From a virus: a DNA stretch of 26,765 nt. Shown here piece after piece: positions 136-12,977 of the stretch. The translations under genes and the position numbers were made by a program. Position 1 is the first letter of the stretch, and each line of letters starts with the position of its first letter. The stretch covers positions 1 to 26,765 of IMG/VR virus record IMGVR_UViG_3300005911_000008; one strand, 5' to 3'. The notes beneath the pieces are model-generated. The model did no database searches. It saw only the letters and a program-made list of their open reading frames with translations, and was not told the DNA's origin.

Positions 136-162
136 GCGTTCCTTATGTTCTTCCTTCGTCAT
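1..162 (-). CDS. partial protein of 15-residue charged repeats
   Basis: The reading frame runs off the left edge, so only the first 54 residues are visible. I place the start at the ATG at 162; a TTG at 183 in the same frame is the alternative, and a stop at 220-222 closes the frame upstream. After MTKEEHKERKRK the protein is a tandem repeat of about 15 residues with the core KYRDDNKEIIKER, almost entirely Lys, Arg, Glu, Asp and Asn, which predicts a long charged helix. Repeats of this style are common as helical arms in phage HNH or GIY-YIG endonucleases, but the catalytic part, if any, lies outside the window, so that identity is a guess. It follows the methyltransferase gene after a 64-base gap that is richer in G and C than its surroundings. 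No clear ribosome binding site is visible. Confidence 0.65.
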   Translation of the reverse strand, partial: MTKEEHKERKRKYRDNNKEKIKEYNKKYRDDNKEIIKERERKYRDDNKEIIKER

Positions 163-226
163 ATCAATTTGATTTAAAACCAATCCCAGACCACAACCAC
201 GAGGCCCGGAATTGGTGGATTACATG

Positions 227-1210
227 TTAAAACATTTCTTTTTGATTATTTTCAAACCTATTCTTAACGCCGATCATGTTTTTAATAGTTTGGTTGTAAT
301 AACTTTCTTTTAATTCTATTCCTTTCGCTTTGCGCCCCATGCTGACAGGGCTGTAAATCTCAGAACCAACCCCCATAAATGGAGTCAATATGACCTCACC
401 CGGATTTGAATATAACTCTACAATCCTATCAATGACATCTAATTGTAACGGGTGAACGTGCTTTTCGTCATCCCCTTCTCTAGCTGGTTTAAATTCCAAC
501 ACATTCCGGTTCCTGATATCATCCCAAACGGATGAGGCGTAACGCTGCCAAATGATATGAGCTTTTTTGTTTGTCTTATGGTCAGCCCATTGTTTGTATT
601 TTATCAGTATATGATCCCATGAGCCATATTTACGCTCCATTTCCGGGAGCAATGGAGTTGACCCGGCATAATAATCTAACCCGGTTTTGTGAGTCACAGG
701 TATTTTATTTTCCCCGCCTTTTCTAAAAATTAAAACATAGTCAGGTATTGCAGTATAACACTTAGTTGAGTCCTCTACAATCTGCTTATGCTTAAGGCTA
801 TTTACCATAGTCCTAGTTCTGACCTCTAACGGTTCCTTCCATATCGTTATCCTATTGTTGTAAGAAAAACCATATTTCAAATGAAGCTTAATAATCTCAT
901 GTGGAAAGTCCCACAATGTGTGAGCTGTTGTATGTGTAATTACATCAGAACAATGTACCGCCGTTATCCTGCCGGGTTTTGTTACCCTCGCTACCTCTTT
1001 AATCAAAAATTCAAATTGTTGCAAAAACTGCTCTTTTGATTCACAGTTCGAAAAGTCATTTTCACTTGAACTGTATTGGTAAAGCCCGGCGAATGGTGGG
1101 GAGTAAACCGAAAGGTCAATACTTTCCTTTTCTAGTTCTGGTAAAACGTGCATGCAATCTCCGTTATACAGTGAATAATTTTCTGTATGATATTGGTTAA
1201 TAACCTTCAT
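227..1210 (-). CDS. beta-class DNA methyltransferase (N4-cytosine or N6-adenine)
   Basis: The 327-residue protein transfers a methyl group from S-adenosylmethionine to an exocyclic amino group in DNA. Catalytic motif IV is SPPF at residues 37-40, after the typical DLSVY strand. The AdoMet-binding motif I is near the C-terminus, TPFMGVGS at 276-283, followed by GIEL at 297-300. Motif IV before the target-recognition region and motif I last is the beta-class order. SPPF is more usual for N4-cytosine enzymes, where N6-adenine enzymes have DPPY; the usual Asp of DPFxGxG is Thr here. No restriction endonuclease gene is next to it, so it looks like an orphan phage methylase for restriction evasion or marking. 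Its ATG lies two bases after the helicase stop, so the two are surely co-transcribed. Target sequence cannot be read from the protein. Confidence 0.9.
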   Translation of the reverse strand: MKVINQYHTENYSLYNGDCMHVLPELEKESIDLSVYSPPFAGLYQYSSSENDFSNCESKEQFLQQFEFLIKEVARVTKPGRITAVHCSDVITHTTAHTLWDFPHEIIKLHLKYGFSYNNRITIWKEPLEVRTRTMVNSLKHKQIVEDSTKCYTAIPDYVLIFRKGGENKIPVTHKTGLDYYAGSTPLLPEMERKYGSWDHILIKYKQWADHKTNKKAHIIWQRYASSVWDDIRNRNVLEFKPAREGDDEKHVHPLQLDVIDRIVELYSNPGEVILTPFMGVGSEIYSPVSMGRKAKGIELKESYYNQTIKNMIGVKNRFENNQKEMF

Positions 1211-1212
1211 AA

Positions 1213-2580
1213 TTAAATAAATTTAGGCGTTAATATTTCTTTTTCAAATTTGATTTTCTCAACCTTTAATCCTTTGTTTAATGTCGTATTTAAACTGTCA
1301 AATAACTGTATTGCTTTTTCTGTTTTTAACAAAAGCGCATCAATAACCCGCTTTTGACCGTCTGATAAAACAAGATCAGCGTAAACAGGTTTTGTTTGCC
1401 CAAACCGCCAAAATCTTCTTATTGCTTGATAGTACTGCTCATAACTCCATGTTGGGAAATAAACAGTATGGTTACAGTGCTGCCAGTTTAGACCGAACGA
1501 AGTCATTTTTGGTTTCGTGATCAGCTTTTTTATTTCACCATTACCGAACGCTAATAAAAGTTCCTCCTTTTTTTCAAGTGGCATTGATCCTTTTATCTGG
1601 AACGCGTCCTTATCAAGTTTTTGCAGTAAATCACCTTCATCATTGAAATTACACCAATAAACAGAAATATCATGACTTTCTGCTAATTCAACTGCTTTAT
1701 TGCATCTATTTTCAATTGTTAGCTTTTGCTCTATCCTGACTTCTGTCATTGTTTTTGCCACTATTCCAAACATCATTATCTGACCATCAATAACCCAATT
1801 TTTATCATTCCTTACATAGTTATGATTTAGTATTAATTCAGGTAAAATAAATTTAGTATCATCAAATCCCAGGTCAGAAGGTTTCCGCATTGAGATCGAC
1901 CAACCAGATACCCACTTGAAAAAGTCATTTTTTGCATGTGGTTTAAGGTACCACTTTGTCGCAATCTCTTGCGGCCTTATGTTGTTTTCATTGTTAGCAA
2001 AAAACCTGCTTAACATTTCCATATAACCCAACTCTCCCAACGCCTCCGAACTTGTGCCCAATTCAATAAAGTCGTTAGGACTTGGAGTCGCTGTAAATAG
2101 AAATCTGTACTTTACTTTTTTAAGAAACGTAGTTACATGATTTTTAATTGCACCTTTGAAGTTTTTCAAAATACTGCTCTCATCTAGTATAACGCAATCA
2201 AAATCATCATGATTAAATTTATCCAAACGCTCATAATTGCAGATCACAATATCAGTATTATATTTGCCATCTTTTGAATACATTATTGACGCATCCAAAT
2301 TGAATTTTTCGGCCTCCTTGATGAACTGGAATGCAACGGCTAAAGGTGTTATTATCAGTACTGGCTTATTCGTGTGCCTCCGATAGTTCACAGCTGTTGT
2401 AAGCTCAATTATTGTCTTACCTAATCCAGTGTCAAGGAATACAGCGCACCGACCTTTTTTTATAGCATATTCTGATACATATTCTTGGAAGTCAAATAAT
2501 TTATCAGGTAGATATTTAATTTCAATTCCATGGTTGATCGATGAGTGCTGTTTCGATTTTAAAAATTCCTTATAATCCAT
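1213..2580 (-). CDS. SNF2/DEAD-type superfamily 2 helicase
   Basis: This 455-residue protein is an ATP-dependent DNA translocase or helicase of superfamily 2. Walker A is DTGLGKT at residues 50-56, motif Ia is near LIITPLA at 75-81, Walker B is DESS at 133-136, and motif III is TATPSPND at 163-170. In the second RecA-like half, TSFGLNWQ is motif V and QAIRRFWRFGQ at 385-395 is motif VI, with the paired arginines as arginine fingers. DESS rather than DEAH and the RxGQ ending are typical of the SNF2-like helicases of phages. Length fits the compact phage form with no extra DNA-binding domain. In phages such helicases serve replication initiation, recombination or fork restart. It sits directly before the methyltransferase and after a run of tiny genes; a short gap at 2581-2648 precedes it and may hold a secondary promoter. 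Confidence 0.9.
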   Translation of the reverse strand: MDYKEFLKSKQHSSINHGIEIKYLPDKLFDFQEYVSEYAIKKGRCAVFLDTGLGKTIIELTTAVNYRRHTNKPVLIITPLAVAFQFIKEAEKFNLDASIMYSKDGKYNTDIVICNYERLDKFNHDDFDCVILDESSILKNFKGAIKNHVTTFLKKVKYRFLFTATPSPNDFIELGTSSEALGELGYMEMLSRFFANNENNIRPQEIATKWYLKPHAKNDFFKWVSGWSISMRKPSDLGFDDTKFILPELILNHNYVRNDKNWVIDGQIMMFGIVAKTMTEVRIEQKLTIENRCNKAVELAESHDISVYWCNFNDEGDLLQKLDKDAFQIKGSMPLEKKEELLLAFGNGEIKKLITKPKMTSFGLNWQHCNHTVYFPTWSYEQYYQAIRRFWRFGQTKPVYADLVLSDGQKRVIDALLLKTEKAIQLFDSLNTTLNKGLKVEKIKFEKEILTPKFI

Positions 2581-2607
2581 CCGTATAAATTTTAATTAGT
2601 CAATAAG

Positions 2608-2615
2608 CAAATGTA
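2608..2615 (-). promoter_or_regulatory. weak promoter candidate (-7 box only)
   Basis: On the minus strand TACATTTG matches the Bacteroidota -7 consensus TAnnTTTG and lies 28 bases upstream of the helicase ATG, in one of the few gaps of the left block. I see no TTTG at the usual distance upstream, so this may be chance in AT-rich DNA. Confidence 0.25.
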
Positions 2616-2648
2616 ACAAATTACCTGTTGTGTGAATGTTAAAAATAG

Positions 2649-2849
2649 TTAAAACTCAGTTGTAGCAATCAAATCAATTGAGTCGTTTAGGTCCGCGTAT
2701 TCAGCAAATGTATTGAGTATCTTATACCCGCATGAATAGTCATCTTCGTTATAATCTTCATCCGATTCAGGTTCACTTTCATTAATATCTAAAATGTAAT
2801 GATTGCCCCAATACTTTTTAGGAACTATCGAAACCTTGACATTATTCAA
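2649..2849 (-). CDS. small acidic hypothetical protein (TTG start)
   Basis: I do not recognise this 66-residue protein. It has a basic N-terminal part with VSIVPKKYWG, then a strongly acidic stretch (ESEPESDEDYNEDDY, about residues 24-38), then a helical tail. No membrane segment or signal peptide is visible. The frame has no ATG at all: the only start near the front is TTG at 2849, preceded by GGAG at a very short spacing of two bases, so the true start is less sure than the frame. It follows the 75-residue gene after a 10-base gap and is the last of a run of very small genes before the helicase. An acidic, possibly DNA-mimic-like, role is imaginable but unsupported. Confidence 0.55.
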   Translation of the reverse strand: MNNVKVSIVPKKYWGNHYILDINESEPESDEDYNEDDYSCGYKILNTFAEYADLNDSIDLIATTEF

Positions 2850-2859
2850 ATCTCCGCAT

Positions 2860-3087
2860 TCAGTAAAACTGATTAAGTTGGTGCAATTGATCTTCGTCTG
2901 TAATCATTTGTAAGTACTTGCCTTTCACGCACACCTTATAGGCTTTCTTAGTGCTTAATATCTTATTATAAATATCACCACCTTCGTTTGTCCATCCGTT
3001 CTGCAATGTTATATTTCCAAGTCTCCACATACTGTTATTAAGTCGCTTAAATCCGTTCAGCTCAATAATTTCATTTGTTAATTTCAT
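2860..3087 (-). CDS. small hypothetical phage protein, 75 aa
   Basis: The protein starts MKLTNEIIELNGFKRL and then has a WRLGNITLQNGW stretch and an aromatic C-terminus (LHQLNQFY). This layout, a short helix, a two-strand tryptophan-containing sheet and a final helix ending in LxxLxxFY, resembles a small family often seen in Bacteroidota phages and conjugative elements, whose function is not known to me. The ATG at 3087 overlaps the stop of the 59-residue gene upstream in an ATGA, so translation is coupled. It has no Cys pair, membrane segment or signal peptide. I am sure it is a real gene because of the coupling and the compact reading frame, and unsure of its role. Confidence 0.7.
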   Translation of the reverse strand: MKLTNEIIELNGFKRLNNSMWRLGNITLQNGWTNEGGDIYNKILSTKKAYKVCVKGKYLQMITDEDQLHQLNQFY

Positions 3088-3263
3088 CGCTTCAAATGTT
3101 TATAGTTTAAATAATTCCCTTCGCTGTCAACTTCATCCTCCCTGTAATCAATCAGGTAGCGGTATTCATATTTTGTCAATTCCTTGCCCCATATCGGTAT
3201 ATTGGTATTGATTACTTTTTCGTTCACCTGGTAGATTCCTGGTGATATTGTTTTGATTTTCAT
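3084..3263 (-). CDS. small hypothetical protein, 59 aa
   Basis: Found by translating the gap between two longer frames. The 59 residues begin MKIKTISPGIYQVN and continue with INTNIPIWGKELTKYEY and a charged tail ending NYKHLKR. The first half looks like a beta hairpin, as in many small phage proteins whose name is unknown. Its ATG at 3263 shares one base with the upstream stop (TAATG) and its TGA overlaps the downstream ATG (ATGA), which is the strongest evidence that it is translated. There is no separate ribosome binding site, so it probably depends on ribosomes ending the gene before it. No known family is recognised. Confidence 0.72.
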   Translation of the reverse strand: MKIKTISPGIYQVNEKVINTNIPIWGKELTKYEYRYLIDYREDEVDSEGNYLNYKHLKR

Positions 3264-3436
3264 TAGTATAAATTTTTAATAACCTGTTCATAAACAAAAT
3301 CCCGATCTTCATTCAAACCATTCAATTGTGTTTCATCCATTGGCACCCCGTCAAGATCGGCAGCTGATATGAAGGCATCGACGAAATCCGGGGCATCGTT
3401 TGTATTGATGTCATCTATTTGGATGTTATCTATCAT
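3263..3436 (-). CDS. small acidic hypothetical protein, 57 aa
   Basis: Also found by hand. The 57-residue product is acidic and mostly helical in appearance: MIDNIQIDDINTNDAPDFVD at the N-terminus and FVYEQVIKNLY at the end. An AAGGAG Shine-Dalgarno site at 3445-3450 sits eight bases before the ATG at 3436, inside the end of the upstream gene, a strong site for this otherwise SD-poor window. Start and stop both form one-base TAATG overlaps with the neighbours. No Cys, no membrane segment, no motif I can name. Acidic small proteins in phage early regions are sometimes inhibitors of host enzymes, but nothing here shows that. Confidence 0.72.
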   Translation of the reverse strand: MIDNIQIDDINTNDAPDFVDAFISAADLDGVPMDETQLNGLNEDRDFVYEQVIKNLY

Positions 3437-3639
3437 TATCCGTTCTCCTTTATTAGTTCGTTTTGTTTTTCCAGATCATTTACAATTCCTTTAAGTGAAT
3501 AAATTAAACACTTATCTACTGTTCCGTCAAGTTTAGTTATTTCTTCTAATATCATACTGTTATAGCCCGTAACTAACAATTCAATAATATTGGCCGGCTT
3601 ACCGTTCGATCCTCCATAATGTTTTAAAGTAAGTATCAT
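3436..3639 (-). CDS. small hypothetical protein, 67 aa
   Basis: The 67 residues start MILTLKHYGGSNGKPANIIE and look like a small alpha/beta fold: a first strand, a Gly-rich turn, a second strand (LLVTGYNSMILEEI) and a helix ending KQNELIKENG. It resembles no family I can name. It opens with an ATG at 3639 that overlaps the stop of the 45-residue membrane gene by four bases (ATGA) and ends in a TAATG overlap with the 57-residue gene, so it is a middle link of the coupled run of small genes between exonuclease and helicase. No signal peptide or membrane segment. Confidence 0.65.
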   Translation of the reverse strand: MILTLKHYGGSNGKPANIIELLVTGYNSMILEEITKLDGTVDKCLIYSLKGIVNDLEKQNELIKENG

Positions 3640-3773
3640 TTCCTACCCTCCCTTTGGAATCTCTGGTGTAACTTTTCCCTGTATATCTTGCTGTTCTTTC
3701 GTTTGATTGACATAGCACGATTAAATATTAACAGCGTAATAATTATGACGGCTATTCCGATTAGGTATGTCAT
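3636..3773 (-). CDS. single-pass membrane microprotein, 45 aa
   Basis: Found by hand in the gap after the exonuclease gene. Residues 3-17 (YLIGIAVIIITLLIF) form one hydrophobic membrane segment, followed by a strongly basic tail (SIKRKNSKIYREKLHQRFQREGRK) that should stay in the cytoplasm, giving an N-out, C-in protein by the positive-inside rule. The ATG at 3773 overlaps the exonuclease stop and the TGA overlaps the next ATG, both as ATGA. The role is unknown; small membrane proteins in phage early regions can act in superinfection exclusion or in tethering phage proteins to the membrane, but this is only inference. Confidence 0.7.
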   Translation of the reverse strand: MTYLIGIAVIIITLLIFNRAMSIKRKNSKIYREKLHQRFQREGRK

Positions 3774-4363
3774 AATTCACTGATTAATTTAGTTACTAAC
3801 TTATCCAATTGAATACACCTATCTAACATATCAGCCTGATAATCATTATCGGCTGCAATCCGGTAAACCTTCGCTTTTAAGTGGTCAGGAAATTCAGGAT
3901 TAAATGTCATAAAGTCACACCATGTGCAGGTGGTAACCATCATTTGAAACTGCACCTGAGCAAAATATTTCGGTGGTATTCCGTTCTGTAAGTATTCAAG
4001 ATGTGCCTTCGGTTGAGGGCTTTTAATCTCCAACAAACCCCTGTTACGATCTTCCATTACCATCCCGTCAGGAGTACACCCGATGAAATCAAATTCAGGA
4101 TGGATTATAAATCCGGGTAACTTAACCTTAATATTTCTCGATTTCGCGTAAATCAATCTTGCATCAGGTTCCCGTTCCAATCCTTGTTCCATTTGCCAGG
4201 TAGTGAAATCAGGCGGCTCAACCCCAAGTCGCTCCAATACTAACTCATTTGCATAGGTCTTGGCCATTTGTCCGAATAGTTCCGGGCCTTTGCCTTTTGC
4301 CATAATGTCATAGCCTTTACTTGCCGTGATTCGGCCTGATCTTTTTGGTGATAGTTCTGTCAT
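3770..4363 (-). CDS. YqaJ-type 5'-3' exonuclease
   Basis: The 197-residue protein belongs to the YqaJ/lambda exonuclease group of the PD-(D/E)XK nucleases, which digest one strand of duplex DNA from an end to give single strands for annealing. The N-terminal RSGRITASKG (residues 8-17) is the usual start of the family. GLEREPDARLIY (61-72) supplies the first acidic residue, TPDG (97-100) and EIKS (112-115) form the metal site with Glu112 and Lys114, and QVQFQ (136-140) is the following helix motif. Length is typical for the phage form. The stop of the OB-like gene upstream overlaps its ATG in ATGA. A partner annealase (RecT, Erf, Bet or Sak) is not recognisable in the window, so that role may fall to a neighbour. 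Confidence 0.9.
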   Translation of the reverse strand: MTELSPKRSGRITASKGYDIMAKGKGPELFGQMAKTYANELVLERLGVEPPDFTTWQMEQGLEREPDARLIYAKSRNIKVKLPGFIIHPEFDFIGCTPDGMVMEDRNRGLLEIKSPQPKAHLEYLQNGIPPKYFAQVQFQMMVTTCTWCDFMTFNPEFPDHLKAKVYRIAADNDYQADMLDRCIQLDKLVTKLISEL

Positions 4364-4704
4364 ACTGTTACATTTTTATAGTTTCCTTTAATCCTGATTG
4401 CCTCCACCTGCTGACCAAACGCTGAAACCGTCTGTGTCGTAAGTGTAACCTGTTGCCCGATCCAGTCCTCGATATAAGGTGAACCAGTTACCTCTGCAAT
4501 TTTCTTCGCGTTGGTTTTGTTCAGGATCATACCTTTTTTAGCTCCTTTGAATTTCAAGACTGTAACGGTTTCCTTTTCTTTACCGTTAAATGTTTCGTCC
4601 TGATCAATTGATTCAATTGTAACTGTAACGTTTTTTTCTAGTTCCTCGGCAGATATAAACCGATAGTCAAAACTTTTCTTCCAATGTGTTTTCGTGTCGC
4701 TCAT
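4360..4704 (-). CDS. OB-like single-strand DNA-binding protein candidate
   Basis: This 114-residue protein has the layout of a small family that regularly precedes YqaJ exonucleases in Bacteroidota and Firmicutes phages: a beta-rich first half (VTVTIESIDQDETF), then KGMILNKTNAKKIAEVTGSP (57-77 region), then WIGQQVTLTTQTVSAFGQQVEAIRI. The last part reads as an OB-like strand pattern ending in a conserved Arg-Ile. By position and pattern it may bind single-stranded DNA made by the exonuclease or help it load; this is inferred, not shown. A promoter candidate lies 34 bases upstream, so this gene may start a separate transcript with the exonuclease and the small genes that follow. Confidence 0.65.
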   Translation of the reverse strand: MSDTKTHWKKSFDYRFISAEELEKNVTVTIESIDQDETFNGKEKETVTVLKFKGAKKGMILNKTNAKKIAEVTGSPYIEDWIGQQVTLTTQTVSAFGQQVEAIRIKGNYKNVTV

Positions 4705-4737
4705 TATAAATATTTTTAAGTGATTAATTTATTAATG

Positions 4738-4766
4738 TAAAGATACATCTAAATTCAACTTCCAAA
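4738..4766 (-). promoter_or_regulatory. promoter candidate before the recombination genes
   Basis: The only non-coding gap of the middle left block, 4705-4778, holds TTTG (4763-4766) and TATCTTTA (4738-4745) on the minus strand, 17 bases apart. The consensus is TTTG, 19-21 bases, TAnnTTTG, so the match is good at the -33 box, seven of eight at the -7 box, and short in spacing. A 14-base inverted repeat, TTAACA-TT-TGTTAA, lies at 4769-4782, just upstream of the -33 box and over the previous stop codon, where it could be an operator. Confidence 0.4.
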
Positions 4767-4778
4767 AGTTAACATTTG

Positions 4779-5819
4779 TTAATTTTTGATGTGATTAATA
4801 ACCTTATCAATCAAGTTTGAAACATCACCGTACATCTTTTGGTTTTTCACAGACTTGAATACATACCTGTTTTTAATATCTTCAAGATCATAAATCAAAT
4901 CCTGAACTTTTGCCGAGTCTCCTTTGTTCAGTTCGGATTGTTTTTTGATTTCGACATCTGATATTGCTTTTAATTCAGCAGCTTTCTTTTCTTCAAGTTC
5001 TTTGTTAATCCTGTCGCGTTCGTTGCGTTCTGCCTGTAATTTTACCCGCATTTGCTCTGCTGCCTTTTCCGCTTTCTCAGCCTCAATTTTACGCAACCTG
5101 TCTGATTCTTTCTTTTGCTCTGCAAGTTTCGCCTCGTTGTCTGCTTTGATCTTTGCTGCTTTTTCGGCTTCAACCTTTGCAACCCTGACACGTTCCTTTT
5201 CCGCTTTTTCCCCTACAACTTTCAAGTTCTCATTTTCAACCTCGATCAATCTCAACCTTTCCGCTTCTGCTTTCTCGGCTGCAATCCGATCTTGCTCTGC
5301 CTTTTTTTCCGCTGCAATACGATCTTCATACTCTGCTTTTTTAGTATTCAGATAAGCAATCCACACATCATCTTCCATGTAACCCAATTGCCGTTCGTGT
5401 GCATCTTCAAGGTAATGTGAAAGCATCTCGACGCGCTTTGTTTGCAGTTCCTCAATCTTTTTCAGTTGCTGGATTTCGTAGTAGTTCTCGATCTCTGACA
5501 ACTTTTCTTCCATTTGAACAATTGGAAGAGTTTCCTTGTTTTTCCATGCATCAACAAATTTCCCAGCGGCAAGGAAATAAGCCTTTTGTGTTTTGTGAAT
5601 TGATGCAATCCCGGTTCTGACTTTTACCAGTGATTTTCTGATTGTAGCTGCCTCTGAACAGGTTTTGATAGTGATCTCTTCCGTAAGGAGATTCTCATAG
5701 ACTTTCGCCAGTCCGTCACGCTCTATGATTTTGGGCATAAAAGCATCTTCAATTGTTTTTACTTTTTCTGAATCTAGTCCGTATTCAGCAGGATTAATTT
5801 TTGTAATTTGTGTCGTCAT
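4779..5819 (-). CDS. DUF1351-like coiled-coil recombination-region protein
   Basis: The 346-residue protein has an N-terminal helical domain (about 1-130) with the pattern AATIRKSLVKVRTGIASIHKTQ and later IVQMEEKLSEIENYY, then a long Ala/Glu/Lys coiled coil (about 165-295), then a short C-terminal domain. The N-terminal pattern of a small-residue helix, conserved Arg and Lys, and a following IxxxExxL helix resembles DUF1351, a phage family usually found next to RecT or YqaJ genes. That family has no settled function; possible roles are nuclease modulation or annealing. There is no signal peptide. The ATG at 5819 overlaps the previous stop in TAATG. The coiled coil makes plus-strand shadow frames that are not genes. 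Confidence 0.6.
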   Translation of the reverse strand: MTTQITKINPAEYGLDSEKVKTIEDAFMPKIIERDGLAKVYENLLTEEITIKTCSEAATIRKSLVKVRTGIASIHKTQKAYFLAAGKFVDAWKNKETLPIVQMEEKLSEIENYYEIQQLKKIEELQTKRVEMLSHYLEDAHERQLGYMEDDVWIAYLNTKKAEYEDRIAAEKKAEQDRIAAEKAEAERLRLIEVENENLKVVGEKAEKERVRVAKVEAEKAAKIKADNEAKLAEQKKESDRLRKIEAEKAEKAAEQMRVKLQAERNERDRINKELEEKKAAELKAISDVEIKKQSELNKGDSAKVQDLIYDLEDIKNRYVFKSVKNQKMYGDVSNLIDKVINHIKN

Positions 5820-6049
5820 TATAATTGTTTGTTTAATTTATTAATACATCCATTTAAGGAATCTATTTCATTTGTATATTTATCATTCAACCATGTGAAA
5901 GTTCCGGGATAGCTATTAAGCGAATCATAAAGAATCTCCCTTCTCCTTATGAAGTGGCTAATTGCAGCAATCACTTCTAATTTATGAGCATATTCTTTTG
6001 TCAGTTCATCCAACTCAGGCCGGCCTATATCGCATTTTCTTATTCTCAT
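5819..6049 (-). CDS. small helical hypothetical protein, 76 aa
   Basis: The 76-residue protein looks like two or three helices with many charged residues: RKCDIGRPELDELTKEY, then LEVIAAISHFIRRREILYDS, then a tail with INKLNKQL. The frame starts at an ATG at 6049, five bases after the stop of the lipoprotein gene, and ends in a one-base TAATG overlap with the coiled-coil gene. It has no membrane segment and no Cys pair. Small helical proteins at this position in phages have no common function known to me. Real gene by coupling and lack of any competing frame. Confidence 0.65.
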   Translation of the reverse strand: MRIRKCDIGRPELDELTKEYAHKLEVIAAISHFIRRREILYDSLNSYPGTFTWLNDKYTNEIDSLNGCINKLNKQL

Positions 6050-6054
6050 ATCGG

Positions 6055-6309
6055 TTAGTTATTAGTAAGTGGCTCATAAAATGATACGAATACCTGGCAA
6101 TTATTAATTGTCAATGAACATCCCATTTTGCCGTCCCTTTTACATTTGTTTATATATGAAATTTGAGACTCATCAAGTTCATTAGTGAATTTAACCTCAC
6201 TAGACTCTTTCAATATTTTCGTGATATGTTTAGGTTCTTCAGTATCTGAACAGCCCAATACACACGCTAATATTAAAAATATTACGCTTAACCTGTTTAA
6301 AATTTTCAT
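6055..6309 (-). CDS. small lipoprotein with surface-export-like signal
   Basis: The 84-residue product starts with a basic MKILNR, a hydrophobic run to residue 18 and the lipobox VLGC with Cys20; LAC with Cys16 is a second, weaker option. After Cys20 come Ser-Asp-Thr-Glu-Glu. In Bacteroidota a short Ser plus acidic stretch straight after the lipidated Cys acts as a lipoprotein export signal that sends lipoproteins to the outer surface, so the protein is predicted to be lipid-anchored and perhaps surface-exposed. The mature part is short, with Cys56, Cys64 and Cys71, which could form a disulphide. It sits in the early-type block rather than with lysis genes, which fits superinfection exclusion more than lysis. 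That function is inferred from position and signal; no family is recognised. Confidence 0.7.
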   Translation of the reverse strand: MKILNRLSVIFLILACVLGCSDTEEPKHITKILKESSEVKFTNELDESQISYINKCKRDGKMGCSLTINNCQVFVSFYEPLTNN

Positions 6310-6313
6310 ATTC

Positions 6314-6622
6314 TTATTTATTAGGATCTAAAATTGCCTGTAATTGTCGCATAAGGAATGAGTACTTCAACCTGTATGTGTTACCGTTTAATTTAATCCA
6401 CTCGTTAGGCTCGTTGTCAGGATTAGTTAAGTACTCATCCATGCAAGCCTTACAGAATATTACATCACGCTCATAAAGCCCGATCACATTAAACATACCG
6501 TGTTCAAAAACGGTATATCCGCATTCATCACACTCGGCTGCATCAATCGGTTCCTGATTACTTGGATGGTCAGGGTTTCCAATTCCGCAGTAGTCGCGGT
6601 CGTAGTTTGGTATTGTTTCCAT
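6314..6622 (-). CDS. zinc-ribbon-like protein, 102 aa
   Basis: Two Cys pairs, CDEC at 31-34 and CKAC at 57-60, are spaced as in a treble-clef or zinc-ribbon fold, and a further Cys12 lies in the sequence YCGIGNPDHP. The remaining chain is a helical tail. The CGIGNP start followed by a zinc ribbon is a pattern I recall in small proteins of Bacteroidota phages, usually unnamed. A structural zinc site suggests contact with nucleic acid or with a protein partner. The ATG at 6622 lies five bases after the stop of the 44-residue leader gene, so it is the second gene of the transcript from the promoter at 6787-6818. Confidence 0.65.
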   Translation of the reverse strand: METIPNYDRDYCGIGNPDHPSNQEPIDAAECDECGYTVFEHGMFNVIGLYERDVIFCKACMDEYLTNPDNEPNEWIKLNGNTYRLKYSFLMRQLQAILDPNK

Positions 6623-6627
6623 GCTAT

Positions 6628-6762
6628 TTAGTTTTTAATGATTTCAGCTTCGTATCCTAATTTTTCAGCCGCTCTTTTACAATGTTCAGCACTGTTGAGC
6701 GTGTCCCATTTTAGGGTTTTGGTGCCGGTTGGTTTTTTTATTATTACTTTGTATTGTTTCAT
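6628..6762 (-). CDS. 44-aa leader protein of the left operon
   Basis: Found by hand. The 44 residues start MKQYKVIIKKPTGTK, a basic strand pair, followed by LKWDTLNSAEHCKRAAEKLGYEAEIIKN, where the SAEHCKRAAEKLGYEAEII part is a helix and final strand. This strand-helix-strand layout with W, A, G and I at conserved-looking spots is common in small phage proteins, but no function is known to me. The start at 6762 is about 18 bases after the expected transcription start of the consensus promoter, so it is the first gene of the left operon. A plus-strand frame over the same bases is a shadow. The A/T-rich leader before the ATG has no Shine-Dalgarno site. Confidence 0.7.
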   Translation of the reverse strand: MKQYKVIIKKPTGTKTLKWDTLNSAEHCKRAAEKLGYEAEIIKN

Positions 6763-6786
6763 AATTTATTCGTATTTGTTATTAAA

Positions 6787-6818
6787 CAAAAGTAAACCAA
6801 CCGATACGGTAATGCAAA
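6787..6818 (-). promoter_or_regulatory. Bacteroidota-type promoter for the left operon
   Basis: On the minus strand TTTG (6815-6818) and TACTTTTG (6787-6794) are exactly 20 bases apart, matching TTTG-N19-21-TAnnTTTG, the consensus of the main sigma factor of Bacteroides, in every fixed position. Transcription should start near 6780 and run into the 44-residue gene at 6762. The spacer contains TTACC, a relic-like half of the GTTACC motif repeated upstream, so a repressor that binds those repeats might also touch the promoter. Confidence 0.75.
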
Positions 6819-6872
6819 TTTGATTTCATAAAATTTGTTAAAATTGGTTTATGATTTGACCAAAATATAAAA

Positions 6873-6898
6873 AGTTACCCTAATAAAAAAAGGTAACT
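6873..6898 (-). repeat. hairpin, terminator-like on both strands
   Basis: AGTTACC (6873-6879) and GGTAACT (6892-6898) are perfect 7-base inverted repeats around a 12-base A/T-rich loop. On the minus strand the second arm is followed by TTTTATATTTT, and on the plus strand by ATTTTT, so weak terminator activity is possible either way. Because the arms share GTTACC with the repeats beyond 6968, a protein-binding site is an equal possibility. Confidence 0.55.
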
Positions 6899-6912
6899 AT
6901 TTTTAAATGTTT

Positions 6913-6945
6913 GGTTATTTGAGTTATTTACATAACCAAATAACC
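6913..6945. repeat. long A/T-rich hairpin in the regulatory gap
   Basis: GGTTATTTG (6913-6921) pairs perfectly with CAAATAACC (6937-6945), and inside it GTTAT pairs with ATAAC around a four-base loop, leaving one bulged A. That gives a 14-bp stem in 33 bases. GTTAT/ATAAC is a one-base variant of the GTTAC/GTAAC motif on both sides. It could be a cruciform or iteron element, an operator, or a spare terminator. Confidence 0.6.
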
Positions 6946-6967
6946 TTTTAATAAATTGATAATCAGA

Positions 6968-7019
6968 GTTACTTTAGGTTACGGTAACCTAAAAGTTACC
7001 GGTTACGTTACCGGTAACT
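6968..7019. repeat. cluster of GTTAC/GTAAC palindromes
   Basis: Two perfect inverted repeats stand side by side. The first has 10-base arms TTTAGGTTAC and GTAACCTAAA around a single G (6973-6993). The second has 10-base arms AGTTACCGGT and ACCGGTAACT around six bases (6994-7019). The 52 bases hold seven GTTAC/GTAAC cores. It lies upstream of the left-operon promoter and just past the terminator of the virion block, so an operator or a replication origin is likely. Confidence 0.7.
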
Positions 7020-7027
7020 AATATCAT

Positions 7028-7058
7028 AAAAAAGGCCAGCCAAATTAATGACCGGCCT
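7028..7058 (-). terminator. rho-independent terminator of the virion and lysis block
   Basis: On the minus strand AGGCCGGTCA and TGGCTGGCCT form a 10-bp stem with two G-U pairs around a six-base TTAATT loop, followed directly by a run of T. It begins 32 bases after the last gene of the right block ends at 7091, and no other gene follows before the next promoter, so it should end the long structural transcript. Confidence 0.85.
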
Positions 7059-7090
7059 ACTAACTAAAACGAACACGAAAAAGAAAAGGA

Positions 7091-7750
7091 TCATTCTCGG
7101 CCCCGCTTACCCGTAACTCGGATATTGGCGGCACCTGATATTTTACTATTTGGATTCATGGATTTAATATCGGCTCCCCATTTTTTAGGTTCAAACCATC
7201 TACTGATAAAGAACTTTCTATTTTTAAACCAGCTAAGTGAGATTATTATTTCATCCCTTGATTCATAATTGATCACCTCCAAGCTATCAGGGTGAACGGC
7301 AATGAAAGCGTCCAACCACTTACTTTTATAGGCCGCAACCCGTGTGATCCTGTTAACGCTGTCACGGATTATTAATGTATCTCGGATTGGAATAAAGATT
7401 GAATCAACACGAACAACGGTCTTAACTGATAATAGTTGCTCTAATTGTCTATTTCTCTTGCCAAAATTTTGAGCTTGCAGGAATAAGGCGTTAATTGTGC
7501 TATCTGTTGTTTGCCTAAGCTCTCTAAGAGTTAATTGCTTCTCCTGAATAGTTATCGCATCTTGACCTGTTTTGTCCTTAAATCGCTTAATTTCGCCTTT
7601 GTAATTCTGTTCCCATCGAACTGCAATATCTTTTTCGCGTTCATAGCGTTTGAGTATAATCCAATTTGATAATATTAAGCTCAGGATTATTGCCCCGGCA
7701 AATATCCAACGCTTATTTTTAAGCAGAAATAGTTTAATGACAGCAATCAT
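7091..7750 (-). CDS. membrane-anchored coiled-coil protein, spanin-like candidate
   Basis: The 219-residue protein has a basic N-terminus and one membrane segment (about 15-33, WIFAGAIILSLILSNWIIL), a coiled-coil stretch (about 35-105), and a C-terminal domain of about 100 residues rich in beta strands. This N-in, C-out layout resembles the inner-membrane spanins of phages and a family of Bacteroidota phage proteins of unknown role (I recall DUF6549). It is the last gene before the terminator and follows the DUF5675-like gene by an ATGA overlap, which fits a lysis role. A spanin needs an outer-membrane partner; no small lipoprotein is embedded here, so it may instead be a unimolecular or unrelated protein. 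Confidence 0.6.
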   Translation of the reverse strand: MIAVIKLFLLKNKRWIFAGAIILSLILSNWIILKRYEREKDIAVRWEQNYKGEIKRFKDKTGQDAITIQEKQLTLRELRQTTDSTINALFLQAQNFGKRNRQLEQLLSVKTVVRVDSIFIPIRDTLIIRDSVNRITRVAAYKSKWLDAFIAVHPDSLEVINYESRDEIIISLSWFKNRKFFISRWFEPKKWGADIKSMNPNSKISGAANIRVTGKRGRE

Positions 7751-8166
7751 AATATTTCAATCTGGATTACATCCTGATCAATTTTACGGGATAAAGCCCC
7801 CATTGTCATAGTCGAATTAACGACATCAATTAAGCCATCCTTATTTAAATCATGCTTTTTATTCCCTACCAAAATGCAGCCCAAAATATCAAAGTGAAAA
7901 TTTCCTTTATGGACAAGGATACCAGATCGGCCTTCCACTTCCAGAAATCGTAACACCCACCCGCGCTTTTCATTGAACTCTTTAGCGGCAAAATAAATGC
8001 CTTTTGGAATGCAGCTAATATTTTTCATATTGTCATCCCATTCAAGTTCTAAAGTAAAGCATTCGAAAACTATTTTCTCACCATCGAATAAAAATAGTTT
8101 ACCCTCTGTTTGTTCCTTCTTATAAAACTGCCTTATGATTTTGATTTTGCTATGTGTAGCCGGCAT
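7747..8166 (-). CDS. DUF5675-like protein, endolysin candidate
   Basis: The 139-residue protein has the features of DUF5675: a TLELEW strand (38-43), CIPKGIY (52-58), then EVEGRSGILVHKGN (76-89) and GCILVG (96-101). His86 and Cys97 in H-x-G-N and G-C-x-x-x-G recall the His/Cys pair of YkuD L,D-transpeptidases, but the spacing is shorter and no Ser-x-Gly-Cys is present, so catalysis is a hypothesis. DUF5675 proteins are common in phage lysis regions of Bacteroidota. The ATG at 8166 lies inside the end of the previous gene and has GGAGG at 8171-8175 four bases ahead, which decides the start; the genes overlap by 34 bases. The C-terminus has a D-x-N-x-D-x-x-x-D-like loop (DLNKDGLIDV) that could bind calcium. 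Confidence 0.65.
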   Translation of the reverse strand: MPATHSKIKIIRQFYKKEQTEGKLFLFDGEKIVFECFTLELEWDDNMKNISCIPKGIYFAAKEFNEKRGWVLRFLEVEGRSGILVHKGNFHFDILGCILVGNKKHDLNKDGLIDVVNSTMTMGALSRKIDQDVIQIEIL

Positions 8167-8528
8167 GTTACCTCCATTTTATTTACAGTTTTTTCAATGC
8201 AAAGTATCCGTTTCTCGATTTCAGTAAACCGCTCCCTTTTCGAGTCTAAACGACTCTCAATACCCTGAAACCGCGTTTCAACTCTAGTTTCAATTTCTCT
8301 TATGGCCTGATTCTGTAACTGGCTATCAGTTTTAAGCTCTCCAATCTGTTCTTTTAAGTCACCAATTTTAAGCTGTATAGATTCAAGACCGGACAATATC
8401 GCTTTTTTGAAATCATCAAAACCTTTTAGCCATCGTTTTGCAGCGAAGGCAATAATTGTAATTGCAGCGATAATAATAAACCCTGCTGCACTGAATAGGA
8501 TACCCGTTGTTTCGGTCATTGGTGTCAT
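8133..8528 (-). CDS. membrane-anchored coiled-coil protein, holin-associated candidate
   Basis: The 131 residues begin with MTPMTETTG and one membrane segment (about 10-28, ILFSAAGFIIIAAITIIAF), then a basic KRWLKG turn, then a long coiled coil with repeats of ExxIxxLK and RLDSKRERFTEIEKRI. The layout resembles XhlA-type holin accessory proteins and other phage proteins that sit with holins. The start is an ATGA overlap with the stop of the 438-residue gene. A role in the lysis complex is inferred from the membrane helix plus coiled coil and from the DUF5675-like neighbour; direct proof is absent. Cys113 and Cys122 lie in the C-terminus. Confidence 0.6.
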   Translation of the reverse strand: MTPMTETTGILFSAAGFIIIAAITIIAFAAKRWLKGFDDFKKAILSGLESIQLKIGDLKEQIGELKTDSQLQNQAIREIETRVETRFQGIESRLDSKRERFTEIEKRILCIEKTVNKMEVTCRLHIAKSKS

Positions 8529-9841
8529 TTTACTTTAGGAATAATAAAAGATATTTCACTCCTCGTGTTGGACTTGAAATCAAATATTATCGCTTTTATT
8601 TTATCCTTAGACCCGTCAAAGGTGCCTCTATTTTCAAATACGTTTATATTAAAATATCTCTTATGGCTATCCTTAATAAACCAAGGCCCATACGCCCCGA
8701 ACGTCATTAAGTGCCTATTGGAAGCAAACCGCTTCAATTGCAAGGATACTTTTTTACGTGAATCGACAACTAAATTATTATTTTCATCAGCCCCAATTTT
8801 TAGAAATTCATCAGCGTAAAATACTTTTATAAAATTATGCGTAAAATCCAATAGCGGAAATTTATCAACAATAATAGGATCTGGTTTTGGTTTCACAACT
8901 GGGACGTATACAGGCGGCGTATAATTATCCAAATCAATAGCCCCCTCAGGCAATGGGGGTTTTGATAATGTGTACTTTAAGAAATAAAATGTTCCTATGG
9001 CATCGCACTTACTGTAAGGTGTAACATTTACTTTTATGATAATATTATTTTTATCATAATCTGAAAGTGAAGGATAATAGTATGTCCCACCACTCAATAA
9101 CTTTTTTAAAAGCCCGTCACCTTTTATAATTTCAAGTCCGTAGTCACTAAAAAACCTGACCTTACCTTGTACGCGGAAATTCTTATTTTTAATATATCTA
9201 CACCTTAACTTCCCTAATCCAGTATGACATGACAGCCAATGAGATTCAAAATTAATACTAATCGTATCGCCATACTCCACTGGAAAAACTGGACACTGCT
9301 CAAACAGCCATTCAGCATATTGCGTAGGATAAACATCAAATGTTTCATGTGTAATTATGATTGAGTCAATCACATAAAAACTAAGCGGATACCACTTCCA
9401 CCCCGTCGCACTGCTTAATCTATTATTAACTTCGTGCGGATATGCTCTGTACGCTTTACCATCCTGCCATATTCCCATATTAATATTCTGACCGTAATCA
9501 AACCCATCTTTTTTAACATTACCAAGTCCCGGCGGGTCTTGGCCAAATGGGATGGATGTGCGCCCTTGACAACTTACAGTTATGCCCAGTTTGTTAGCAA
9601 CCGTATCAATTTTCCGGCTGTTCACTAATCTGGCCGAATCGTTATCTATGTAATATAAAAACAGGTAACTATCAACAGGCAACTGATTTTCAACATTAAA
9701 AATAGTTATACTTGGGTTGTCTCCGTGCCGCATCGGGGGCGGTATCTCCTGAGCTGTTCCGCATAGCTTAACGGCTAAAACAATTGTAACGATCAGTGCA
9801 ATTGCTAATAATACAGGTGCAAAACTTTTTAGTGTTCTCAT
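8525..9841 (-). CDS. membrane-anchored hypothetical protein, 438 aa
   Basis: One N-terminal membrane segment (about 8-24, APVLLAIALIVTIVLAV) is followed by CGTAQE and then a long soluble region. The Cys lacks a proper lipobox, so a signal anchor is more likely than a lipoprotein. A beta-rich middle contains several Trp, Tyr and His stretches, then a proline-rich linker at about 299-325 (TPPVYVPVVKPKPDPIIV), then a C-terminal beta domain starting FPLLDFTHNF. The linker looks like a hinge between two periplasmic or surface domains. No enzyme motif is recognised. Placed between a holin-like gene and a membrane coiled coil, it may be a lysis factor or a host-surface protein; sure of the reading frame, unsure of the role. 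Confidence 0.6.
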   Translation of the reverse strand: MRTLKSFAPVLLAIALIVTIVLAVKLCGTAQEIPPPMRHGDNPSITIFNVENQLPVDSYLFLYYIDNDSARLVNSRKIDTVANKLGITVSCQGRTSIPFGQDPPGLGNVKKDGFDYGQNINMGIWQDGKAYRAYPHEVNNRLSSATGWKWYPLSFYVIDSIIITHETFDVYPTQYAEWLFEQCPVFPVEYGDTISINFESHWLSCHTGLGKLRCRYIKNKNFRVQGKVRFFSDYGLEIIKGDGLLKKLLSGGTYYYPSLSDYDKNNIIIKVNVTPYSKCDAIGTFYFLKYTLSKPPLPEGAIDLDNYTPPVYVPVVKPKPDPIIVDKFPLLDFTHNFIKVFYADEFLKIGADENNNLVVDSRKKVSLQLKRFASNRHLMTFGAYGPWFIKDSHKRYFNINVFENRGTFDGSKDKIKAIIFDFKSNTRSEISFIIPKVK

Positions 9842-10053
9842 TTTAGTTTAGTTTTAATTATTTCGGTAACGTCTTTAGCAAGTCCGGCAATCAATAGAAT
9901 GGCGCAAAGTACACCACCCACAACCAATACCCTGTAGTCATCCAAGGTATAAAATCCAAACCCGGATAAAAACATTGCTGCCATTGTAGCAAGCCCAGCC
10001 CAGGTGCCGGTAAACCTTCGCCAAAATCCTAATTCACCTTTTGATTTTTCCAT
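9838..10053 (-). CDS. small two-helix membrane protein, holin candidate
   Basis: The 71-residue protein has two hydrophobic segments (about 18-35, TWAGLATMAAMFLSGFGF, and 43-59, LVVGGVLCAILLIAGLA), a basic N-terminus, a short turn with DDYR and a basic C-terminus (EIIKTKLK). Two helices with both ends in the cytoplasm match class II holins. It lies in the lysis region and overlaps the start of the next gene in ATGA. The glycine-rich helix packing supports assembly in the membrane. Holin is the best reading, but small membrane proteins in this region could also be antiholin or unrelated. Confidence 0.6.
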   Translation of the reverse strand: MEKSKGELGFWRRFTGTWAGLATMAAMFLSGFGFYTLDDYRVLVVGGVLCAILLIAGLAKDVTEIIKTKLK

Positions 10054-10055
10054 GA

Positions 10056-10442
10056 TTATTCAAATATTCGTTTATGATAATTAAGTAATTGATACAATGA
10101 TAACGTTCGCTTCATATCTTCGCCCGTTGTATATATGTAATTTTTCACAAAGAAGTAGCCATACTCCTCACCGGTGTATGGGTTTTTAAGTTTGTCGCCC
10201 GCTCTTAAATACCTCTTGTAAGTTTTCTCCTTCGAAAAATAGGATGTATCAGATAGTTTCAGCTCTTTAGTTAAAGTTATAAAACTAACTAATTGATACG
10301 GATTGTCGGCATCAATGAATTTTTCATGATACCATCTGTAAAAAATAGTATCATTACTAAACTGCACTGTATCCGTATGGATCAACGTTTGCCCAACCCC
10401 AGCAAATGGGATGAGTAATAATAATAGAATTAAGTTTTTCAT
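10056..10442 (-). CDS. exported hypothetical protein, 128 aa
   Basis: MKNLILLLLLIPFAGVGQ is a clear Sec signal peptide with a predicted cleavage after Gly17, leaving Gln at the new N-terminus. The mature part of about 110 residues has a beta-rich run (TDTVQFSNDTIFYRWYHEKF), a charged middle and a Tyr-rich end (YIYTTGEDMKRTLSLYQLL). No family is recognised. It follows the fibre genes by a few bases and precedes the holin-like gene, so it could belong to either the tail or the lysis set. Similar signal peptides on four other genes of this block make it part of an exported group. Confidence 0.6.
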   Translation of the reverse strand: MKNLILLLLLIPFAGVGQTLIHTDTVQFSNDTIFYRWYHEKFIDADNPYQLVSFITLTKELKLSDTSYFSKEKTYKRYLRAGDKLKNPYTGEEYGYFFVKNYIYTTGEDMKRTLSLYQLLNYHKRIFE

Positions 10443-10449
10443 ATCTTTA

Positions 10450-12180
10450 TTAATTATGTACTTTGGTTATTTTAATTATTCCATTTTTTAATTGTGCTGT
10501 ACCGCTTCCATCGCCCTTTATTTGCAATAAAATTTCATCACCAGCCGCGCAAACAAATGATGCGACTGTAATAATAGTGCCATAATCGTCAGTTCCTTCA
10601 CCTGTAATCGCTCCAGCGACTGGCATTCCAGATGTTTGTGTTTTATTATAAAACCGGATAGATACGGTTTCGTTATAATCGCAACTTAATGTATTTGTTG
10701 CTATAAAATCATAGTGACCCGCTCCGGTTATTGTGATTGTATCATTCGATTCTGTAAAGCCATCGCTATGATCATTAATCCACAAGCTATCACCAATATT
10801 TGAAAGGTGATCCCATTCGGTTGAATAACTGTAAGAAACTGTTGAATCTCCGTAATAATGAAATAAATGAATAGCCTTATCTGGAGATATATATTGAGTA
10901 GTTCTAATATCACCAGTCGTTACAAAACCACCTGCGTAAACAACCGCGCTCGAATCATCAGCCATGATGACTGAGGTTACCGATTCATTTCCAATTGTGG
11001 CAGTGTTATCGCCACTTCCTATTGCATCGTAACCGATAACTATTTCATTATCACTGTTGGCTGTGTTTGCTTCAGATAAATCACCGATGTAGACGCATTG
11101 GTCCGGACTAGTATTACTTAATCCGCCTGTGTATGTGCTTCCCGCATTGAGTCCGATTGCAACAGTATTATTTCCAGATGTATTATTATTCAACGCTGAT
11201 TTACCAACGGCTGTATTATTTCCACCAGTGATATTGCTCAACATTGACTGCCAACCTATCGCGGTGTTTCCATTTGCTGAGCAAGCTAATAACGCCGCAG
11301 AGCCTATTGCGGTATTTTGACTATCTGTTGCATCAGTAGCCCCCCTTAGTGCGTCTGCGCCTATACCTATATTGTTATTTGCATTTACACTTAACAAACC
11401 AGCCTCATAACCGATATAAATATTTTCATTTGCTGTAAGATCATCTACTGGACCCGCATCTCCACCAATGAATATGCTTCCTCCCGTACTACTTATCTCA
11501 ATCCTTCCAGCAACATCTAATATGGCCGCCGGACTCTTAACCCCAATGCCGACCGAGTCGGTTACTGTTTTTGTATAAACGGAACCACCTGACCTGCCCC
11601 ATAGCGAAGTATCCGACACTGTTCCAACGTAATCAACAACAGCCGATGAAGTGACCAACGCGCCATCAGAATTAATGACAGTGGTTAAAATAGAATCTAC
11701 AAATACGGATTGACTAGCAAATGATAAATCGTTTTCAACATAAACATTGTCCAAATTAAGCACAATTGAACCGCCATCAATTTGACTTTTACCAGATGTA
11801 TTTTCGTAGAAATCTGTTGTACCGTTCAAACTGAACTTACCTCCATTAATTTCGAATAATTCAGATGGTGAGTCCGTACCTATACCTAACGAGTCAGTTA
11901 TAGTTGATGAGTATAAATGTCCCAGAGTCTTATCCCAGTATTGGCCCGTCGAGATAATATAAAAAGATGCCTCTACGTCGCGAATGGCGTTGGTTTTCGC
12001 AATGCTTTTAAAGGCTATACGCAATACAGCATCATCAACGTTATATACCATCGTACCTTTTACGATATTTTCAGCGAATACAGTTCTATCATTAGCGACT
12101 CGGACCAATTTAACGGGCGTTATCTGTGAATAACCGTGCAATGTCATCACGCACAAAATGATTCCGAGTATTTTTTTCAT
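10450..12180 (-). CDS. exported tail-fibre-like adhesin with YadA-head repeats and C1q-like tip
   Basis: The 576-residue protein has four parts. A signal peptide, MKKILGIILCVMTLHGYS, is cleaved before Gln19. Residues 20-60 form an N-terminal module with RVAND, shared with the next fibre gene. Two structural modules follow, each ending TDSxGIGxxSP (95-107 and 207-219). Residues 250-400 are YadA-like head repeats such as NTAIG, NTAVG and VAIG, expected to wind into a trimeric beta roll. The C-terminus (about 430-576) has the beta pattern of a C1q/TNF-type jelly roll (YDFIATNTLSCDYNETVSIRF, then AAGDEILLQI), a common receptor-binding tip. Such fibres bind host surface sugars or proteins. The signal peptide is the odd point, because virion proteins normally assemble in the cytoplasm. 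Confidence 0.75.
   Translation of the reverse strand: MKKILGIILCVMTLHGYSQITPVKLVRVANDRTVFAENIVKGTMVYNVDDAVLRIAFKSIAKTNAIRDVEASFYIISTGQYWDKTLGHLYSSTITDSLGIGTDSPSELFEINGGKFSLNGTTDFYENTSGKSQIDGGSIVLNLDNVYVENDLSFASQSVFVDSILTTVINSDGALVTSSAVVDYVGTVSDTSLWGRSGGSVYTKTVTDSVGIGVKSPAAILDVAGRIEISSTGGSIFIGGDAGPVDDLTANENIYIGYEAGLLSVNANNNIGIGADALRGATDATDSQNTAIGSAALLACSANGNTAIGWQSMLSNITGGNNTAVGKSALNNNTSGNNTVAIGLNAGSTYTGGLSNTSPDQCVYIGDLSEANTANSDNEIVIGYDAIGSGDNTATIGNESVTSVIMADDSSAVVYAGGFVTTGDIRTTQYISPDKAIHLFHYYGDSTVSYSYSTEWDHLSNIGDSLWINDHSDGFTESNDTITITGAGHYDFIATNTLSCDYNETVSIRFYNKTQTSGMPVAGAITGEGTDDYGTIITVASFVCAAGDEILLQIKGDGSGTAQLKNGIIKITKVHN
10981..11433 (-). repeat. YadA-head-type repeats in the fibre gene
   Basis: Residues 250-400 of the 576-residue fibre consist of irregular units with the hydrophobic pattern (N)NxxIGxxA or NTAVGxxA, as in trimeric autotransporter heads. 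At least six units are seen: IYIGYEA, IGIGADA, TAIGSAA, TAIGWQS, TAVGKSA, VAIGLNA, with later variants YIGDLS, VIGYDA and TIGNES. They vary in length, so the DNA is not a clean tandem array. Confidence 0.8.
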
Positions 12181-12182
12181 TC

Positions 12183-12956
12183 TTAATAGTTATATGTTAC
12201 AACGACAATATCATATTGCAAAACAGCTATGCCAATTTCAAGCGTTCCTGCCGTGAGGGTGTAATTCGCCGGATCAAGCATAGACCCATTCAAAGACACC
12301 GTCGCCCCGGCTGTTTGAGCAGTTTGGGCTAAGGAGTGTTCCGTGGCTGTGCCGCTCGTTTCTTCGAACTTTTCAGTGAACAATGTAAAATTAGCGGCTA
12401 AACCATCTAATTTAGATTTATCTGTTGCTGTCATTACTCCAGCCGCCTCAGTTGTTGCTGCTGCAATTACTACATCATCAGCCCCCCCATCGGATGTTAT
12501 GCCATATGTGGAATGACTTACGGTCCCTGTGCTTAGAGCAGTAGATACGTTTGTAACCTTCGCATTATTCAATACTACCTCATCAAACTTCGCTTTAGTC
12601 ATCACACCAGCCCGTGAAGCACTAGCGGCCACAAGTGTCGCATTCGTTCCAGTACTTGAATTTACATCAACTGTCGTCTCCGTAACGGTTCCCTCAGTTA
12701 AATTAGTAGTTGCCGAGTTAGGGTTAATCAATGTAAATGATGCTGATCCGGTTGTAAGCGTTAAAGTACTTACTACCCCCACATTTGATACATACAATAG
12801 ATCCGCGTTAATATCGTAGATCAACTTACCAACGGATATATTTACACCCATTGCAGTGGTGTCGTTCGCGATCCGTAAAACTTCGGTTGGAACTACCTGT
12901 GAAAATGCCAATATACTAATCAGCATTAAACTTAAAAACAAACTTACTTTTTTCAT
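12183..12956 (-). CDS. exported small fibre-like protein, 257 aa
   Basis: Signal peptide MKKVSLFLSLMLISILAFS, predicted cut before Gln20. The next 40 residues (VVPTEVLRIAND and following to LIYDINADLLYV) match the start of the 576-residue fibre: P, hydrophobic pair, R-I/V-AND, T, then a G and I/V-Y. A Thr/Ser/Ala-rich helical-linker region with VMTKAKFDEVV and VMTATDKSKLDGL repeats, both of the 'gvMTkxkfdkl' type seen in phage fibres, covers the middle. The C-terminal 40 residues (VSLNGSMLDPANYTL to YDIVVVTYNY) are a fibre tip pattern shared with the 517-residue gene: NG, long strand, Y, G-turn, strand, D-hydrophobic-V-x-Y. Probably a receptor-binding or base-of-fibre protein; host ligand unknown. 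Confidence 0.7.
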   Translation of the reverse strand: MKKVSLFLSLMLISILAFSQVVPTEVLRIANDTTAMGVNISVGKLIYDINADLLYVSNVGVVSTLTLTTGSASFTLINPNSATTNLTEGTVTETTVDVNSSTGTNATLVAASASRAGVMTKAKFDEVVLNNAKVTNVSTALSTGTVSHSTYGITSDGGADDVVIAAATTEAAGVMTATDKSKLDGLAANFTLFTEKFEETSGTATEHSLAQTAQTAGATVSLNGSMLDPANYTLTAGTLEIGIAVLQYDIVVVTYNY

Positions 12957-12977
12957 AATATTTACAAATTTAGTTAA

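Follow-up and report, generated by a model that had tools for sequence, protein, structure and literature searches.

What role is played by a dense array of GTTAC and GTAAC words that fills a non-coding gap between the late and the early genes of a phage? The earlier note had proposed that the array is bound by a dimeric repressor, by a replication initiator recognising iterons or by a site-specific recombinase. The window, i.e. the whole 26.8-kb stretch of DNA analysed here, is a linear virus fragment whose main genes are all on the minus strand, with protease, major head, tape measure and tail-spike-like genes on its right side and YqaJ exonuclease, helicase and N6/N4 methyltransferase genes on its left. 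The late block, which includes a DUF5675 gene and the gene for a membrane-anchored, spanin-like DUF6549 protein, ends at 7091, and the array lies between the terminator of this late/lysis operon (7058-7033) and the early promoter (6818-6787). Homologues of the neighbouring genes are found in Cellulophaga, Bacteroides and Flavobacterium phages, and thus support a Bacteroidota host. The features of the region are given below, together with their conservation in two sister contigs, L002 and L003.

6629-6762, minus strand: first small early open reading frame (44 aa), 100% identical across all relatives
6787-6818, minus strand: Bacteroidota-type early-operon promoter, TTTG N20 TACTTTTG, matching the consensus and identical in L002 and L003
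6846-~7550, no strand: exchanged patch, the sole divergent segment relative to L002 in 15.5 kb, comprising the array and the middle of the DUF6549 gene
6873-7019, no strand: GTTAC/GTAAC array (nine cores plus four GTTAT/ATAAC variants, four inverted repeats), a proposed cluster of initiator-binding sites (iterons)
6873-6898, no strand: inverted repeat 1, AGTTACC N12 GGTAACT, the left core pair (7-bp arms, spacer of 12), terminator-like on the minus strand
6899-6967, no strand: AT-rich stretch between the two GTTAC groups, containing inverted repeat 2; candidate melting region
6913-6945: inverted repeat 2, GGTTATTTG/CAAATAACC (9-bp arms, spacer of 15), with an inner GTTAT/ATAAC pair
6968-7019, no strand: right group of seven GTTAC/GTAAC cores, including inverted repeats 3 and 4
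6973-6993: inverted repeat 3 (10-bp arms, spacer of 1)
6994-7019: inverted repeat 4 (10-bp arms, spacer of 6)
7033-7058, minus strand: intrinsic terminator at the end of the late/lysis operon, with a stem of 10 bp and a T run, common to L002 and L003
7091-7750, minus strand: last late gene, DUF6549 protein, spanin-like with an N-terminal transmembrane segment; 79% identical to L002/L003, whereas its neighbours are 96-100% identical

Elsewhere in the window, positions 1-160 carry in-frame tandem repeats on the minus strand (RKYRDNNKEKIKEYNKK...) that resemble the N-terminus of HNH-type homing endonucleases; in L003 this position is taken by another gene. A small lipoprotein with a signal peptide and a lipobox (LACVLGC) is encoded at 6055-6309, near the start of the early operon, and is possibly a superinfection exclusion protein or an outer spanin.

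Reading of the sequence and a repeat search bore out the description of the array in the earlier note, in its counts as well as its coordinates. The 147 non-coding base pairs hold nine cores (starting at 6874+, 6893-, 6968+, 6978+, 6984-, 6995+, 7002+, 7007+ and 7014-), four variants (6914-6918, 6923-6927, 6932-6936 and 6940-6944) and four inverted repeats with arms of 7-10 bp, all of them perfect. Dinucleotide shuffles of the same segment contained 1.08 cores on average, and none of 2,000 reached nine; inverted repeats cover 91 of the 147 bases against a shuffle mean of 13, a coverage attained in 0 of 1,000 shuffles. The array is the densest inverted-repeat patch of the window, GTTAC is the first-ranked 5-mer cluster in its 8-kb segment, and the DNA folds with a z-score of -6.7. 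Two cores on the left are separated from seven on the right by a stretch (~6898-6967) with 81% A+T, compared to 62% overall. Core spacing is irregular (19, 75, 10, 6, 11, 7, 5, 7), most cores are inverted with respect to each other, and the direct pair GTTACN3GTTAC does not occur in the window. GC skew does not change at the array, which is weak evidence given that all genes are on one strand. The array region had no match in Rfam, its exact core had none in the viral contig collection, and comparison of its DNA with phages and plasmids returned chance-level matches only.

The hairpins predicted from the array are also very stable as RNA (z-score of -7.8), and T runs come after two stems on the minus strand. 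Both observations would be expected if the array acted at the RNA level, with tandem hairpins that insulate the late from the early operon or provide back-up termination between them. However, 6898-6873 is the sole array stem of the four with a T run immediately after it. The array is already preceded by a strong terminator, its hairpins are built on a common sequence core, for which terminators have no need, and the segment that replaces the array in relatives shows no excess folding (z-score of 0.1). We thus regard a role in RNA as decidedly unlikely.

The array had been placed between a terminator and a consensus promoter. The terminator is real and on the minus strand; the promoter conforms to the Bacteroidota consensus, while no sigma-70 promoter is present there. 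The array stands directly upstream of this early promoter, 55 bp from its -33 box, in keeping with the main rival to the initiator-site reading developed below, that of an operator array, in which a phage or host regulator would bind GTTAC half-sites cooperatively and control the early promoter. We consider this possible, if less than probable. The many scattered cores of mixed orientation over 147 bp would be unusual for a single dimeric repressor, and no helix-turn-helix protein or other DNA-binding regulator was found among the scanned window proteins.

The flanks of L002 and L003 are near-identical to those of the window, with about a dozen scattered substitutions in ~14.8 kb between the window and L002, but 6846-7027 is replaced in both by ~45 nt in which AATAATCT, or a near match to it, occurs three times, with both orientations represented. 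Further into the patch, the terminator and the 3' end of the DUF6549 gene are ~97% alike, while about one third of the bases differ from L002 in the middle of this gene (7200-7550), both ends of which are near-identical. Among the proteins compared between the window and L002 (155-15676), all are 99.7-100% identical except for the DUF6549 protein (79%). Because divergence from L002 is confined to 6846-~7550, the array is, on sequence comparison, part of an exchanged segment, swapped together with the middle of the DUF6549 gene.

These data bear on the operator explanation in two ways. The replacement in L002 and L003 is itself a repeat array upstream of an identical promoter, and AATAATCT could represent another operator type, as in heteroimmune phages; the exchange of operator sets among near-identical phages is a classic occurrence. 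On the other hand, since all other compared proteins are 99.7-100% identical, no protein over 155-15676 co-varies with the array apart from the membrane-anchored DUF6549 protein.

The same patch could be a recombination product or assembly chimera devoid of a dedicated function, a divergent allele having been spliced in by homologous exchange or by the assembler. In keeping with this, 6846-~7550 is the only segment that diverges from L002, the array and the DUF6549 allele of the window are absent from all other IMG/VR contigs searched, and contig L005 stops exactly at 6852, showing that assemblers break there. An exchange, however, accounts for the arrival of the array and not for nine copies of a 5-mer and four perfect inverted repeats; moreover, the reading frame of the DUF6549 allele is uninterrupted, and neither frame nor sequence is damaged where the flanks join. 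This explanation therefore appears quite improbable.

An attachment site, or another recombinase target, could also be considered, given the inverted repeats of varied spacing at a module junction. Nevertheless, no integrase or recombinase was found among the scanned proteins of the window (an incomplete genome), neither a tRNA nor an attP was found in the window, and relatives carry unrelated sequence at the same place, which makes this by far the least credible alternative.

In Bacteroides fragilis phages, too, the DUF6549 gene is followed by a gap and then by the early operon, but a GTTAC array at this junction is absent from them, from Cellulophaga phi10:1 and from the more distant contigs examined. 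Scanning a genome collection for relatives through the DUF6549 protein recovered none, and through the 346-aa early protein only two MAG contigs, both lacking the array. According to the earlier note, a regulatory or origin function would fail if related genomes kept the genes and not the repeats; L002 and L003 do keep the genes and carry a different, shorter array, which weakens the idea. In a homologue of the 346-aa early protein, an AAATC tandem repeat lies directly before the start codon (L012:371-412), possibly a phase-variable start region.

We searched for the longest palindrome of the array (GTTACCGGT, gap, ACCGGTAAC), which was found in 20 contigs. Two of these, L041 and L046, represent one phage type, a motif-led find, and have ~17 GTTACCGGT-type units. 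The units lie directly 3' of a Prim-Pol/D5_N/DUF5906/Pox_D5 gene (L046:12998-13220 and L041:1830-2060), and are a very clear candidate for the origin of this uncharacterised phage. This domain order is that of D5-type superfamily-3 helicases (PMC9611036). The GTTACN3GTTAC pair is absent from L046, and is thus common rather than strictly defining. Another match, L051, whose single palindrome lies in a gap of 58 bp, was discarded because it looked ordinary and resembled a terminator.

To avoid motif bias, a sample was then assembled from 18 phage loci chosen by helicase homology and not by motif (with Streptococcus phage Sfi21 included for its annotated origin), all of them DUF5906 by profile, and 5-mer clusters within 300 bp were ranked over a few kilobases around the helicase gene. 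GTTAC was the top-ranked cluster in five of the 18 (Sfi21, Javan392, Dub35A, R9Y3 and Vibrio 1.022.O) and was not in the other 13, while in all nine control phages lacking DUF5906 it ranked 24 or worse. The annotated origin of Sfi21 contains 11 GTTAC cores around a stretch of 89% A+T, directly 3' of the DUF5906 primase gene. Six loci have the direct pair GTTACN3GTTAC: the same five and the L003 contig. Other words are clustered just past the helicase gene in further phages, namely GGAAC (Javan612), GTCAC (Constance) and GGCAC (Adephagia). In DUF5906-helicase phages of Alteromonas, Streptococcus, Lactococcus and Vibrio, the GTTAC clusters, often with GTTACN3GTTAC around AT-rich stretches, are at L063:1535-1865, L064:4593-4930, L072:4568-4790 and L066:7550-7850. 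A search of the open literature found no paper stating that GTTAC clusters recur at the origins of D5/DUF5906 phages.

The window has no DUF5906 helicase over its 26.8 kb. Sister contig L003 (G002), however, reaches past the left edge of the window and encodes, just beyond that edge, a 411-aa DUF5906 helicase (PF19263, E 2e-15). In the 184 bp directly 3' of this gene, a stretch of 85% A+T is surrounded by four GTTAC cores (shuffle p 0.003), among them one GTTACtttGTTAC pair. From this helicase and its adjacent cores, the kind of phage found in the window appears to use a DUF5906 initiator with a GTTAC core, and a helicase of this family is probably encoded by the window's own phage. This agrees with the prediction that the binding protein would be encoded elsewhere. 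With regard to the three binders initially proposed, the GTTAC clusters of Sfi21, of other, unrelated DUF5906 phages and of the sister helicase favour an initiator; neither a recombinase nor a repressor was found among the scanned proteins of the window.

We therefore propose, with a probability of roughly 55%, that the array is a cluster of iterons to which a D5/DUF5906 superfamily-3 initiator helicase binds, and would be an origin or an auxiliary origin element. The phage helicase would bind GTTAC cores through its C-terminal domain and hexamers would assemble at the left pair of cores and at the right group of seven, so that the AT-rich stretch between them opens and replication starts. Alternatively, the array could serve the initiator as an auxiliary site comparable to crr in satellite phage P4, replication being assisted rather than started there. 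The array is not directly 3' of a helicase gene, for which R9Y3 and Vibrio 1.022.O provide precedents of a remote cluster. Since L002 and L003 lack the array and L003 has sites beside its helicase, the cluster in the window would be second, dispensable or relocated; our preferred reading is that of an additional set of initiator-binding sites, or of a relocated one. Our confidence is kept moderate by the location of the helicase outside the window, by the lack of the array in the sisters, by the irregular, inverted spacing with no GTTACN3GTTAC, and by the 13 of 18 sampled loci where GTTAC is not the top cluster. Initiator sites and an operator of the early promoter are not mutually exclusive: the array being 55 bp upstream of the -33 box, a bound initiator could also modulate early transcription.

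Next to its DUF5906 helicase, the sister contig (IMGVR_UViG_3300025697_000230) encodes, at L059:15299-15940, a 213-aa T5orf172/MUG113 protein. The C-terminal part of this protein is homologous to the C-terminal part of the helicase (pairwise E 2e-8), and the chimera is an Odn-like, possibly origin-directed nuclease. By analogy, the array might be an origin element, bound by the initiator, which near-clonal phages exchange as a cassette in order to escape origin-directed nucleases. We hold this extension to be unlikely; it would set an Odn-like design in Bacteroidota phages, with an initiator family different from that of ICP1 and PLEs.

If the initiator-site reading is right, the origins of D5/DUF5906 phages could often be found from sequence alone through a GTTAC cluster, which would recur across Streptococcus, Lactococcus, Alteromonas, Vibrio and Bacteroidota phages. 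Competition between phages that targets origins becomes directly testable with these near-clonal phages, whose arrays have been exchanged, and with a sister nuclease that apparently borrows the C-terminal domain of the initiator.

Known systems show parallels to the array at different levels. Short origin iterons are recognised by the C-terminal domain of SaPI Rep helicases, and SCCmec Cch2 binds where iterons of 5 nt are found (PMC7581432); these origins, like the array, combine iterons of ~5 nt with inverted repeats, but are directly downstream of the helicase gene and have another core sequence. Odn of phage ICP1 joins a T5orf172 nuclease to the DNA-binding domain of an initiator, and is considered to have favoured the swapping of origins among PLEs (PMC8263062). 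Here too, sequence at a putative origin is swapped between near-identical elements and a similar nuclease chimera is present in a sister contig, although the PLE initiator is RepA_N and the link between nuclease and array swap is speculative in our case. The Sfi21 origin (AF115103), a 302-bp non-coding region 3' of a D5-type primase, shares with the array an AT-rich stretch surrounded by cores of either orientation, as well as the D5/DUF5906 initiator family, encoded in Sfi21 itself and, for the window, in a sister phage. It differs in that its cluster adjoins the primase gene and has GTTACN3GTTAC pairs, whereas the array is at the late/early junction, mostly inverted and irregular. In satellite phage P4, the alpha helicase-primase binds ori1 and crr, which share the same short repeat and are kilobases apart; P4 can serve as a model for an additional cluster at a distance from the helicase gene, with core sequence and repeat layout different from those of the array. 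Lastly, in Alteromonas phage R9Y3 the genes flanking the cluster are divergent, and not co-directional as in the window, and the AT-rich stretch is more pronounced against a genome of 54% GC. Its thirteen GTTAC cores (L063 1535-1865), within 300 bp, lie between the late genes and the early operon, as does the array in the window; in R9Y3 this operon encodes the DUF5906 primase/helicase.
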